IMG/VR virus record: IMGVR_UViG_3300027743_000007
Location: 1-53,516 of that record
DNA from: a virus
Strand: one strand, 5' to 3'
DNA length: 53,516 nucleotides
This document shows, in pieces, positions 2,802-47,990 of this stretch. The notes under the pieces were generated by a model. It ran no database searches, had not been told where the DNA came from, and saw nothing but the letters and a program-made list of their open reading frames with translations. Made by a program: the position numbers and the translations under genes. Numbering within the stretch: position 1 is the stretch's first letter; the number at the start of each line of letters is the position of its first letter.

Positions 2802-3229
2802 CGGTCGCCGGCGCCGATGGCGAGCTGCTGGTCGAGGTACAACTCCCAGACCGTACGGCCGTCGTCGCTCTGCATGTACGGCAGCATCACCTGGTCGAGC
2901 GTGACCATCTCGGTCTCGGTGATCGCCAGCTGCGCCTCCAGCCAGTCCTTGATGATCCGCCACGCCACCCGCTCGGCCTGCTCGGGTGACTTGTAGCGCG
3001 GCGGCACCTGCCGGTCGTTGCGTAGCACCTTGGCGACGCGCTCGACGTTGACCGGCAGCGTGAAGCGGCGTAGCCCGTGGGCGGTCGGCATGGCGAAGGC
3101 GAGCCCGGTCGGGCGGCCGGCGTCGTACGTCATCATGATCTGGCTGGCGCCCTTGACCGCCAGCACATGCGTCATCTCGGCGGCGGTGCGGGTCGCCGCC
3201 ACGCTCGTGGTGTAGTTGAGCAACGGCAT
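2798..3229 (-). CDS. Hypothetical phage protein (143 aa)
   Basis: The N-terminal half is beta-rich, with SQIMMTYDAGRPTGLAFAM, and is followed by a helical segment (residues about 65-110) rich in Lys, Arg and Glu. The layout recalls the small uncharacterised proteins often found near phage replication and recombination genes. No catalytic residues are recognisable. Start and stop overlap both neighbours, so it is a central member of the operon. Confidence 0.65.
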   Translation of the reverse strand: MPLLNYTTSVAATRTAAEMTHVLAVKGASQIMMTYDAGRPTGLAFAMPTAHGLRRFTLPVNVERVAKVLRNDRQVPPRYKSPEQAERVAWRIIKDWLEAQLAITETEMVTLDQVMLPYMQSDDGRTVWELYLDQQLAIGAGDR

Positions 3230-17865: not shown

Positions 17866-17920
17866 AATATTCCCCGGCGAATATGTTGCCATCGGGTGCC
17901 CGCTGGTGGACACTGATTAC
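17866..17920 (+). promoter_or_regulatory. Promoter cassette driving the ncRNA
   Basis: Carries the full shared cassette: an upstream CCGGCGAATATG, TTGCCA at 17886-17891, a 17-bp spacer, and GACACT at 17909-17914. Unlike the other copies, no start codon follows at 6-7 bases, and no gene begins before 18548. Its product is therefore expected to be the non-coding RNA. Confidence 0.8.
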
Positions 17921-18489
17921 TAGTTACGACATAGGTGTTCCGGAGGCGCAGTTGCTGAGCACGGCCGACGAGGGAACACCGAAAGACGACGAACGAGCGG
18001 CCCGGTGAATCACCTGGCTATGCGGATCAGCCGGCCTAAGTTTCCCCTCGGGGGTATGGCGACGGGGAGCCCCGCACCGGAGGACGACCGGCCGCTCGTG
18101 AGCAGGGCCAGGGTGGTAGCAAATCGGTACAAGCCCCGGGAACCTGAGACCCGGCCCTGCTCACCGTGAGACCGGCGAAGAGCCATCCACGGGCCCGTTG
18201 ACCACACCGCTGACGGCTAACGACCACCAGCCACCTGAGAATGGTGGAGGACCCCTGAACGAACGGCGTGCGAGGTGACCCGGTACGGGTGAGCGAAGCG
18301 GAAGAACGGCCAGAACGCCAAACGAGAGCATCCCCTGAGTGGCCACGACGGGGGGAGGGTAGGGCGGCAAGTAGGGCCGGCTCACGGGGTCGTCGGCACC
18401 ATTTCGGGAGCCGCAGGGCTCGCCGCCCGCAGCGATGCGAGGTGTGGCCCGAAATCTTGAAGCCCGCAGCCTCACCGGCTGCGGGCTTC
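17921..18489 (+). ncRNA. Large structured non-coding RNA, class unknown
   Basis: About 570 bases lie between a clear promoter and a strong terminator and hold no credible gene on either strand. Several long, perfect helices can be drawn: 17993-18002 with 18090-18099, 18098-18109 with 18153-18164 (12 bp, stacking on the first), 18401-18408 with 18448-18455, and the terminal stem 18459-18470 with 18478-18489. Smaller paired elements fill the middle. No RNase P, tmRNA, SRP or group I intron signatures were recognised. Size and phage setting recall the large ornate phage RNAs (GOLLD, ROOL), but no specific match can be claimed. Confidence 0.65.
18459..18489 (+). terminator. Intrinsic terminator ending the ncRNA
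   Basis: A 12-bp perfect stem (GAAGCCCGCAGC with its complement) and a 7-base loop are followed by GTTATTT, the best run of T in the region. The next promoter cassette begins immediately after. Confidence 0.85.
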
Positions 18490-18490
18490 G

Positions 18491-18547
18491 TTATTTCCAC
18501 CGGCGAATTATGTTGCCATCCGGGCGCTGACCGTGGACACTCAAGGT
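18491..18547 (+). promoter_or_regulatory. Promoter cassette of the deazaguanine operon
   Basis: Contains CCACCGGCGAATTATG, TTGCCA at 18513-18518, a 17-bp spacer and GACACT at 18536-18541. The ATG of the next gene follows after 6 bases, so the message is probably leaderless. It is the only clear promoter for the genes up to 22836. Confidence 0.8.
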
Positions 18548-20452: not shown

Positions 20453-20772
20453 CCGTCGTCAAGGTGCGCCACCGGGCGGTCGGCTTCCACCGCTGGCCGA
20501 ACCCTCGGCCCGGGCGCGAGTACCTCGGCCAGCGCCACCGCCACGAGTTCTGGCTAGAGGCCGCCGCCACCGTCACCGACGACGACCGCCAGATCGAATT
20601 CCATGACTTCAAGGCCGAGCTGGTCGCCGCCTTCCCCGGCGGGGAGATGGGAGATGCCTCGTGCGAAGCCATGGCCCGCGACGTACTGGCTCGCCTGCGG
20701 GCCCGTTTCGGCCCGGCCGTGGCGTGGTGCGAGGTCTGGGAGGATGGCGAGTGCGGGGCGCTGGTGTCGTGA
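20449..20772 (+). CDS. T-fold protein, QueD-like without zinc ligands
   Basis: The 107-residue protein starts at GTG 20449 inside the DpdA stop. It follows the order of QueD-type T-fold enzymes: FHRWPNP, RHRHEFWLEAAATV, IEFHDFKAEL (compare DFxxLK), SCEAMARDVLARL (compare the TSENLA helix) and VWEDGECGALV. The His triad that binds zinc in QueD is absent. It may be a non-catalytic subunit or bind a pterin/deazapurine. The family is known from phages as an uncharacterised protein; the role is inferred from context. Confidence 0.6.
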   Translation: MTVVKVRHRAVGFHRWPNPRPGREYLGQRHRHEFWLEAAATVTDDDRQIEFHDFKAELVAAFPGGEMGDASCEAMARDVLARLRARFGPAVAWCEVWEDGECGALVS

Positions 20773-21188
20773 CGACGACGATCACCCGCACCTTCGAGAT
20801 TGACATGGCCCACTGCCTCGCTCAGCACGGCGGCCGGTGCCACGGGCTGCACGGCCACCGCTACAAGGTGGCGCTGACGACGACCGGCGACCTCCACGCC
20901 GAGGGCGTCGAGCAGGGCATGGTGCGTGACTTCGCCCACCTCCGCACGGCGCTCGAGGCGGCCGTCGGCCAGTACGACCACCGCTGCATGATGGCCGTCA
21001 CCGACCCGCGCACGCCGGCGACCGTCGAGGCCTTCGGCGCCAGCGTGGCCGTGGTTGACTTCGCTCCGACCGCCGAGAACCTCGCCGCCTTCTGGGGCGC
21101 GATGCTGGCGAGCCTGCTGCGGCCATTGGAGCTCGTCGGGCTCACGGTGTACGAGACCCCGAACTGCCGAGCGACGTGGGTGCCCTAG
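20769..21188 (+). CDS. queD: QueD, 6-carboxytetrahydropterin synthase
   Basis: GTG 20769 overlaps the previous stop and gives a 139-residue protein, the usual QueD length. It converts dihydroneopterin triphosphate to 6-carboxytetrahydropterin. Zinc ligands His 15, His 28 and His 30 and catalytic Cys 24 are visible in MAHCLAQHGGRCHGLHGH. Further motifs are GMVRDFAHL (50-58), YDH (69-71), PTAENLA (100-106) and the terminal VYETPN with Glu 129. It feeds QueE directly downstream, with a 13-base gene overlap. Confidence 0.93.
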   Translation: MTTTITRTFEIDMAHCLAQHGGRCHGLHGHRYKVALTTTGDLHAEGVEQGMVRDFAHLRTALEAAVGQYDHRCMMAVTDPRTPATVEAFGASVAVVDFAPTAENLAAFWGAMLASLLRPLELVGLTVYETPNCRATWVP

Positions 21189-21892
21189 TCGTCAACCGCG
21201 TCTACGACCGGGTGACCGTGCAAGGCGAGGGCCCCTTCGCCGGGCGCCGGTGCACCTTCGTGCGGCTGTGGGGGTGCAACCTGCACTGCGCCTGGTGCGA
21301 CACGCCCGAGACCTGGGACACGACCGGGCGCATCGGGCCGGCCTACGAGCGGGCCGCCAACGCCGCGCCGCTGCCGGTGGCCGAGGTAGCCGAGGCCGTC
21401 GCCGGGCTCGGGGTCGGGCTGTGCATCGTGACCGGCGGCGAGCCGCTGGTCCAGGCCGACCGCGTGGCCGAGCTGGCCCGGGCGCTGCGCCTCGCCGGCG
21501 TCGCCACGCACGTCGAGACCAACGGCACCATCGCACCGGGCGAGCTGATCGGCGCCGTCGAGCACTTCGTGGTGTCACCGAAGCTCGCCTCAGCCGACGC
21601 CGGCGCCCGGGCGCTACGACCGCCGGCGCTGTCGTCGTTCGGGTTCCTGGCCCGTCAGGACCGGGCGAGCTTCAAGTTCGTGGTCTGCTCGCCGGCCGAC
21701 CTCACCGAAGCGGCTCAGCTGTGCGACCGCTACGGCGTGCCCCACTCGGCGCGCTGGGCGATGCCCGAGGGCACCGACGCCGGCGCCGTTGGGCGCGGGC
21801 TCGGTGAGTGGGCCGAGGCGGCCATCGCTGCGGGCTTCAACGTTTCCACCCGGCTCCACGTTCTACTGTGGGGCGCTGAGAAGGGCCGATGA
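21176..21892 (+). CDS. queE: QueE, 7-carboxy-7-deazaguanine synthase
   Basis: A radical SAM enzyme of 238 residues that converts 6-carboxytetrahydropterin to 7-carboxy-7-deazaguanine. The cluster motif GCNLHCAWC (Cys 34, 38, 41) has the C-x3-C-x2-C spacing. It follows the family pattern VQGEGPFAGRRCTFVRLWGC, and the SAM-binding TGGEPLVQ follows. GTG 21176 lies inside queD, and the stop overlaps the next start (ATGA). The product should be the last phage-encoded precursor, as no QueC was found. Confidence 0.93.
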   Translation: MGALVVNRVYDRVTVQGEGPFAGRRCTFVRLWGCNLHCAWCDTPETWDTTGRIGPAYERAANAAPLPVAEVAEAVAGLGVGLCIVTGGEPLVQADRVAELARALRLAGVATHVETNGTIAPGELIGAVEHFVVSPKLASADAGARALRPPALSSFGFLARQDRASFKFVVCSPADLTEAAQLCDRYGVPHSARWAMPEGTDAGAVGRGLGEWAEAAIAAGFNVSTRLHVLLWGAEKGR

Positions 21893-22836
21893 CCACCACC
21901 GTAGAGACCGGCATAGACCTCCCGATGCGGAGCAACGGCTCGGTGGGCCAGACACTGTCGTGGGCCGACGTGTCCGAGGCCGCCTACGACCTGGCTGCCC
22001 GCTGGCGCAACCGCCGGCCGGCGGCGGTGTACGGCATCCCGACCGGCGGCGCGCCGGTGGCGGTGATGGTGGCCGGCGCGCTGAGCGTGCCCCTTGCCGA
22101 CGAGCCCGGGCCCGGCGTGCTCGTCGTGGACGACCTGATCGACACCGGCCGCACGCTGACGCCCTACGTCGAGGCCGGCCACCTGACCGACGTGCTCTAC
22201 CGCAAGCCATGGTCGCCGGCGGCGCTGTGCCCCGAGGCCGAGGAACGGGACACGTGGCTGCGCTTCCCGTGGGAGCGCGCCGACGGCGCGCCGGTGGACG
22301 CCGTGCTGCGGCTCATCCAATTCATCGGGGACGACCCGACCCGCGACGGGCTGCTCGACACGCCGTCGAGGGTCGTGCGAGCGCTGGTCGAGATGACCTC
22401 GGGCTACGCCACCGACCCGATTGCCGTGCTCGGCACGACCTTCGACGTGGCGAACTACGACGAGCTGGTCGTCGTGCGGGCCATCCCGTTCTCGTCGCTA
22501 TGCGAGCACCACATGCTGCCCTTCGTCGGGCACGCCACTATCGGCTACCTACCCGACCGGCGGGTCGTCGGGCTGAGCAAGCTCGCCCGCCTCGTGCTGG
22601 CGCTCGCCCGCCGGCTGCAGGTTCAGGAGCGGCTGACGGCCGAGATCGCTGACTGCGTGATGAACGGCCTTCGCCCGCTCGGCGTCGGCGTGCTGGTCGA
22701 GGCCGACCACAGCTGCATGGCGATGCGAGGTGTCGAGCGCCGGGCGTCGGCCATCACCTCGGCGGTGCGGGGCGCGCTGGCGACTGACCGCTCGGTGCGG
22801 GCCGAGTTCATGGCCCTGGCCGACGGCCACCTGTAG
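21889..22836 (+). CDS. folE: Phosphoribosyltransferase-GTP cyclohydrolase I fusion
   Basis: Residues 1-130 are a PRTase domain with YGIPTGGAPVA (48-58) and the PRPP loop VLVVDDLIDTGRTL (77-90). Residues 135-315 are GTP cyclohydrolase I, with DPTRDGLLDTPSRV (149-162), the zinc and catalytic CEHHMLPF (205-212), QVQERLT (244-250), and HSCMAMRGV (274-282). FolE opens the GTP ring to give dihydroneopterin triphosphate, the first step toward the deazaguanine. The PRTase half might recycle purines to nucleotides and feed FolE with GTP, or load deazaguanine bases; both are inferences. Last gene of the operon. Confidence 0.92.
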   Translation: MTTTVETGIDLPMRSNGSVGQTLSWADVSEAAYDLAARWRNRRPAAVYGIPTGGAPVAVMVAGALSVPLADEPGPGVLVVDDLIDTGRTLTPYVEAGHLTDVLYRKPWSPAALCPEAEERDTWLRFPWERADGAPVDAVLRLIQFIGDDPTRDGLLDTPSRVVRALVEMTSGYATDPIAVLGTTFDVANYDELVVVRAIPFSSLCEHHMLPFVGHATIGYLPDRRVVGLSKLARLVLALARRLQVQERLTAEIADCVMNGLRPLGVGVLVEADHSCMAMRGVERRASAITSAVRGALATDRSVRAEFMALADGHL

Positions 22837-47935: not shown

Positions 47936-47990
47936 GAGTTCAGTATCCACCGGCGCTTATGCGAATGGCAACATATCCGCCGGTGGTATT
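47936..47990 (-). promoter_or_regulatory. Shared promoter cassette, copy 1
   Basis: Minus 35 TTGCCA (47966-47971), an 18-bp spacer, and minus 10 GATACT (47942-47947). The upstream CCACCGGCGGATATG and the downstream CGCCGGTGGATAC can be read both as an inverted pair (CCACCGGCG/CGCCGGTGG) and as a direct repeat (CCGGYGGATA). Confidence 0.85.

Follow-up and report, generated by a model that had tools for sequence, protein, structure and literature searches.

The window, i.e. the whole 53.5-kb virus record from IMG/VR that was analysed, almost certainly carries a member of a structured RNA family, one that is new and belongs to high-G+C (actinobacteriophage-type) phages. Judged from sequence comparison, it is furthermore probable that two things hold jointly, namely that this RNA family exists and that its members form homodimers through a kissing loop.

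PHROG matches in the window comprised integrase, tape measure, major head, portal and terminase genes, and the nearest relatives of the portal protein were found in Streptomyces and Arthrobacter phages, except for one cyanophage. Because of these matches and the portal relatives, the source looks like a temperate siphovirus of the actinobacteriophage type. In the same record, homologues of 6-pyruvoyl tetrahydropterin synthase (QueD type) and GTP cyclohydrolase (20661-21188 and 21889-22836) sit near a ParB/methyltransferase-type gene, and these neighbours suggest 7-deazaguanine DNA modification in the window phage.

A first-pass annotation had described a structured non-coding RNA of about 570 nt. 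This description was borne out, with covariation in homologues as the main proof, and the best explanation of the region is an RNA gene with a transcription unit of its own, whose structured product would measure about 570 nt. The start of the transcript was derived from a promoter-like element and its end from a terminator:

17886..17914, plus strand: putative promoter-like element TTGCCA-N17-GACACT, a repeated motif.
17921..18492, plus strand: predicted RNA transcript of about 570 nt, from the promoter-like start to the terminator end, with the conserved core within.
18458..18490, plus strand: intrinsic terminator, a 14-pair stem followed by TTATTT.
18513..18541, plus strand: second promoter-like copy directly 3' of the RNA, heading the following genes.

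The terminator was thus present as proposed, its stem having 14 pairs where 12 had been counted. With respect to the proposed promoter, the element itself stood, being repeated in the window; as a promoter it is putative, and a generic sigma-70 scan of the window called none at 17886-17914. Consequently, the element is regarded as phage-specific and promoter-like (putative). A search of the window for the extended motif TTGCCATC-N2-G-N9-GTGGACACT, allowing up to 3 mismatches, resulted in 6 matches compared to 0.03 by chance, five of which are likely real copies. The element (TTGCCAT ... GTGGAYACT) lies in gene gaps at 17886 and 18513 on the plus strand and at 47960, 48650, 49256 and 50025 on the minus strand.

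Comparison with all 4227 models of Rfam 15, at the gathering threshold and with E up to 10, gave only chance matches in the window, and no window match was obtained for the models of RNase P RNA, SRP RNA, group I and II introns, HEARO and ARRPOF. This agrees with the earlier statement that signatures of RNase P RNA, tmRNA, SRP RNA and group I introns are missing. The homologues described below matched no Rfam family either: up to E = 1, only separate tmRNA and tRNA genes and chance matches were found at 16 homologous loci, and no GOLLD match at the Phabba locus. Furthermore, neither the window nor the cluster C loci have a tRNA-like domain according to ARAGORN and Rfam. The RNA had been taken for either a relative of GOLLD or ROOL or a new class; of these, the new class finds support and the kinship, for which an Rfam match was missing, finds none.

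BLASTN of the window RNA against phages returned a sole match of 23 nt (E 0.2), in Mycobacterium phage Phabba. This match sits in a 588-nt gene gap, close in size to the window RNA, with conserved counterparts in Myrna, ScoobyDoobyDoo, Tonenili and about 190 further phage records (Bixzunavirus-type). Across the gaps the motifs follow one another in a shared order, CTGACGGYTAACGACCAC, CCCTGAAYGAA, GAGYGAA and finally a small hairpin holding an 8-nt palindrome. Members were gathered by exact motifs: scanning IMG/VR with the 18-nt search key CTGACGGYTAACGACCA gave 43 stretches, the majority of which had every other motif, and the conservation of the key itself is partly circular because the members were gathered in this way. 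A 22-nt search pattern was too strict, broader patterns delivered L067 as the only clear new member, the rest being chance matches (L056-L066, L068-L070, L075, L076), and a search by neighbour protein led to two loci, both without the RNA.

A covariance model (R1) was built from 15 sequences, the window among them. Full members scored E < 1e-13 and the next full-length matches E ~1e-3, and when phage records were searched whole, 36 of the 40 gave a match, with one full copy per phage. In total, the family counts 36 distinct members in phage contigs and 193 cultured Mycobacterium phage records; the latter, mostly Bixzunavirus-like and a few Myrnavirus, were the only matches among 50,697 cultured-phage records. 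The RNA was not found in the plasmids scanned, and in 84,980 bacterial and archaeal genomes the exact 18-nt key gave four chance matches without any other motif. No description of the RNA family was found in the open-access literature.

The folding energy of the window is mildly unusual (z -2.14) and alone would not settle the matter, so that the status as an RNA rests on covariation in the homologues. The following features make up the conserved part:

18164..18387, plus strand: conserved core, a three-way junction (model R1 positions 1-224), from covariance model and covariation.
18164..18170 with 18381-18387, plus strand: P1, 94.2% of cells paired, 7 of 7 pairs covarying.
18173..18301, plus strand: arm A (P2-P3-P4), long and irregular.
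18173-18176/18298-18301, 18182-18186/18289-18294 and 18194-18196/18274-18276, plus strand: P2a, P2b and P2c, from the all-columns covariation scan.
18203-18209/18264-18270 and 18227-18235/18243-18250, plus strand: P3 and P4, from covariation of modelled pairs.
18210..18227, plus strand: 5' side of the most conserved internal loop, CTGACGGYTAACGACCAC, near-invariant, partly by construction as it served as search key.
18250..18263, plus strand: 3' side of the same loop, around CCCTGAAYGAA, near-invariant.
18307..18379, plus strand: arm B (P6-P7-K), from covariation.
18307-18311/18375-18379, 18321-18323/18362-18364 and 18332-18335/18350-18353, plus strand: P6, P7 (weak in the window) and the stem of hairpin K.
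18339..18346, plus strand: self-complementary loop GTGGCCAC of hairpin K, candidate homodimer kissing loop, from covariation and shuffle control.

The window core reached 180.4 bits (E 1e-44) against the covariance model, of which it is one of the 15 seeds. The homologues, 35 of which were aligned, exhibited the strong covariation that a structured RNA should leave: all 31 modelled pairs were changed on both sides (318 such cells vs 89 after shuffling), with a covariation score of 0.738 vs at most 0.116 for slid partners. P2a, P2b and P2c lie outside the model used for the alignment and were added after the all-columns scan. For the 51-pair structure 92.2% of the cells were paired in the 35 members, 48 of 51 pairs were changed on both sides and the covariation score was 0.672, the controls reaching at most 0.102 (slid) and 0.168 (shuffled). 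Evidently, the core of about 220 nt is a three-way junction closed by P1 and carrying the arms A and B. In other members P1 comprises 7-24 perfect base pairs whose sequences are unrelated between phages. The internal loop between P3 and P4 reads CUGACGGYUAACGACCAC / CCCUGAAYGAA in RNA letters, and its CCCTGAAYGAA side is near-invariant also in those members that the opposite side, used as key, had retrieved. In place of the additions seen in the window, the mycobacteriophage members (Phabba group) carry an extra domain inserted beside arm B. The window additions, predicted and without homologues, surround the core:

17934..17980, plus strand: 5' hairpin GGUGUUCC/GGGAACACC, predicted from a fold with the core constrained.
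17985..18394, plus strand: candidate outer helix P0, 17985-17990 with 18389-18394, predicted; alternative 5' strand 18083-18089.
17993..18099, plus strand: arm I, closed by the 10-bp perfect helix 17993-18002/18090-18099, seen only in the window member.
18100..18163, plus strand: arm II hairpin GAGCAGGGCC.../GGCCCTGCTC, a 12-bp perfect helix, window-specific.
18401..18455, plus strand: 3' hairpin, from its 8-bp perfect outer helix and the fold.

The three helices spotted by eye in the first-pass annotation, 17993-18002/18090-18099, 18098-18109/18153-18164 and 18401-18408/18448-18455, are indeed perfect complements as placed. The fold of the 5' domain is given as a prediction, because this domain is without homologues. 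Arm I contains CCTAAG (18035-18040) and TATGG (18055-18059), which we read as both strands of the 11-nt receptor for GAAA tetraloops; a docking GAAA hairpin was not identified.

The region contains open reading frames of 195 aa (minus strand) and 101 aa (plus strand), which matched nothing in PHROG; the longest one gave no tblastn match in the 50,697 phage records either. The absence of a credible gene noted earlier was confirmed insofar as the reading frames are there but have no relatives. A protein-coding gene with chance structure in place of an RNA could draw on genes that are annotated at the RNA site in Bixzunavirus, such as gp76 of Tonenili, and on PHROG 5256, which is the same translation. 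Its probability is nevertheless negligible: the core pairs covary, the window reading frame has no homologue, no reading frame is conserved (of the 35 members, 0, 0 and 2 keep the respective forward frame open across the core), and the core lengths of the members are evenly spread over the three values modulo 3. The annotated 87-aa protein of Tonenili (gp76, YP_009287940.1; L011:1550-1813) is a translation of the RNA gene, and phrog_5256, which matches gp76 end to end and is likewise a translation of the RNA gene, is probably a spurious protein family. Many other Bixzunavirus records also have annotated genes that overlap the RNA.

The loop of hairpin K (in the core also written GUGGCCAC) is self-complementary and varies within the family. 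Besides GTGCGCAC, the commonest form with about half of the members, the forms GTGGCCAC, GCTGCAGC, GTTGCAAC and GGTGCATC (the last self-complementary via G-U) were found, and furthermore GACGTC, GTGCAC, ATGCAT and the 12-mers GCCGTGCACGGC and CCCGTGCACGGG. Among the alignable 8-mers 24 of 29 are perfect palindromes and 28 of 29 are self-complementary when G-U is counted, compared to at most 19 in 100,000 half-site shuffles; in the same RNAs 0.26% of the other 8-mers are perfect palindromes. In six divergent members the alignment at the loop is poor, and there the palindromes (6-12 nt) were placed by offset. A member outside the alignment, G024 from the whole-record search, has the palindrome CCCGTGCACGGG at the place of the loop.

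In the all-columns covariation scan, which used no structural prior, the pairs 18340/18345 and 18341/18344 rank 31st and 41st, respectively. The loop pairs are formed in 100%, 96% and 96%, and the pair types vary: UA 18, GU 4, CG 1 and AU 1 for pair 2/7, GC 17 and UA 6 for pair 3/6, and GC 14 and CG 9 for the central, adjacent pair 4/5. On the RNA tree, which is poorly resolved with 4 of 32 inner branches well supported, the loop sequence changed at least 16 times. Neighbouring bases within one loop are unable to pair, and the 24 members whose palindrome is perfect have no other complement of the loop within 300 nt of the core; for these two reasons we conclude that the pairing would take place between two molecules. 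A self-complementary loop with compensatory changes across the members, the mark of a homo-oligomeric RNA, was thus found. The HIV-1 dimer initiation site, a stem-loop whose short self-complementary loop with flanking purines starts RNA dimerisation, offers a parallel in an unrelated RNA; here an 8-nt palindrome lies in a 14-nt loop.

Alternatively, the structured RNA could be monomeric and its symmetric loop a site for a dimeric protein or a symmetric partner RNA. Dimeric binders typically use palindromic sites, GTGCGCAC is shared by about half of the members, and a symmetric loop could in principle be favoured by a dimeric protein. However, such a protein would not force compensatory changes in the loop, and the observed changes keep the pairing, including G-U forms like GGUGCAUC that are needless for a protein site. 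Together with the covariation of adjacent nucleotides (GC to CG), this makes a monomer unlikely, and the homodimer is the reading that we favour. In Myrna-like phages a second hairpin with a self-complementary loop occurs (L006 ~3179-3194, also L009, L010 and L034; GGGGAGTCATGACCCC in Phabba), which could form a second kissing contact.

The genes next to the RNA differ between members and encode terminase, portal, head protein, helicase, anti-restriction proteins, phosphoesterases and proteins of unknown function. This variety argues against a role in cis as well as against a packaging RNA. A cis-acting leader or riboswitch of the next gene would fit those members in which the RNA lies just upstream of a gene, yet the RNA has its own terminator, the following genes have their own promoter-like copy and the downstream genes are not constant between members, so that such a role appears very improbable. 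A packaging RNA working for the terminase in the way of phi29 pRNA would be in line with an RNA that adjoins TerL in L052 and the portal gene in L067, or lies beside or between the genes for portal and major head protein in L024 and L054, four members being located in the head/packaging region. In most records with a detected TerL, however, the RNA is ~9 kb to tens of kb away (G009, G010, G016, G025, G031 and others). In Phabba and Bixzunavirus its neighbours are small genes without a known function, and in the window it adjoins a ParB-like gene; we regard packaging as distinctly improbable.

Equally improbable is a replication or prophage-maintenance RNA comparable to the RNA-based origins described for phages Alma and LadyBird (PMC7157519). 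In its favour, the window phage encodes an integrase, a ParB-like gene comes after its RNA, and in L029 a replication initiation gene lies upstream of the RNA, but the ParB_N protein of the window has a second match, to a DNA methyltransferase family, and a parABS set did not turn up. Moreover, the RNA is single-copy and sits at unrelated sites, and the 18-nt key gave only four chance matches in the 84,980 bacterial and archaeal genomes, contrary to what a prophage element would lead one to expect. A single copy per phage and the compact packing from promoter to terminator point to an RNA that acts in trans, and a structural or scaffold role of this kind has, in our estimate, slightly less than an even chance.

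A tRNA, a tmRNA or a lone T-arm hairpin lies up to ~1.2 kb downstream on the same strand in 6 of 33 regions (a plain count). In two phages a separate tmRNA gene follows the RNA on the same strand, at distances of 416 and ~840 nt (L088 7646-8041, L100 8061-8386); in L096 a tRNA-Tyr (629-712) follows 85 nt downstream of the RNA on the same strand, and in L081, L092 and L095 isolated T-arm hairpins (e.g. CGGGGTTCGAACCCCCG) follow 66-242 nt downstream, again on the same strand. In L081 (8933-10240; the phage of L013) the RNA seems to sit in an unusually long stretch of more than 1 kb without clear genes and with a terminator-like hairpin at its end, possibly a much larger RNA.

Compared with known RNAs, the family is separate from GOLLD, ROOL and OLE in sequence and architecture, and in mechanism it may be counted as a further variant of those ornate RNAs that self-assemble. 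Like GOLLD it is a large structured phage-borne RNA with a symmetric kissing loop (a candidate here) that covaries as a palindrome (PMC12286853), and the tRNAs and tmRNAs in some of its regions recall the tRNA neighbourhood of GOLLD and ROOL, GOLLD tRNAs being sometimes nearby or embedded (PMC12286853). Unlike GOLLD, with which there is no sequence or covariance-model match, it has a core of ~220 nt with another three-way junction and occurs in high-G+C phages; GOLLD forms a 14-mer cage. ROOL is likewise a phage/prophage RNA of similar total size (659 nt for ROOL env-120 vs ~570 nt) that oligomerises partly via kissing loops, for which the loop of hairpin K is a candidate here; it differs in its helices and in the missing Rfam match, and it forms a cage. 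The OLE homodimer has a symmetric kissing loop with a covarying palindrome (GGCC/GAUC/AGCU; PMC12286853), but OLE is a bacterial RNA binding Oap proteins (PMC12286853), while here neither a covariance-model match nor an Oap-type neighbour was identified. Phi29 pRNA is also a phage RNA that oligomerises through loops; what sets the present RNA apart is a loop complementary to itself (dimer) and a gene without a tie to terminase. Finally, the RNA-based replication origin of Alma, LadyBird and RedRock is a non-coding RNA of mycobacterial phages (PMC7157519), set apart by its description, which places it in a parABS prophage setting and leaves cluster C unmentioned (PMC7157519).

In the proposed mechanism the apical loop of arm B would kiss the same loop of a second molecule, so that the working form would be a homodimer or a larger oligomer held by this loop contact and perhaps by others. 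The RNA would then act in trans as a scaffold during infection, in the manner of the oligomeric OLE, ROOL and GOLLD RNAs, and its invariant internal loop would bind a conserved partner. Tentatively, and at rather less than even chances, we propose a new class of phage RNA that self-assembles via its loop into an RNA-only dimer or larger body serving as infection scaffold or container, and that occurs widely in cluster C mycobacteriophages and in many high-G+C phages otherwise unlike one another, at times with tRNA- or tmRNA-like parts after it.

In their study of OLE and GOLLD, Kretsch et al. (2025) took the covariation of palindromes, in OLE B3 and GOLLD B8, as evidence that the oligomers are biological (PMC12286853), and the same argument is applied here. 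The structures of GOLLD, ROOL and OLE left open whether RNA-only oligomers are common in nature (PMC12286853). To this question the family would add an independent case of self-pairing, based on strong evolutionary evidence with about ten loop sequences, each of them self-complementary. Annotated genes and one PHROG family are, in addition, revealed as translations of an RNA. No function is yet known for the large ornate phage RNAs, and the present one sits at known sites in ~190 sequenced isolates, which are genetically tractable phages of the widely used laboratory host Mycobacterium smegmatis mc2 155.
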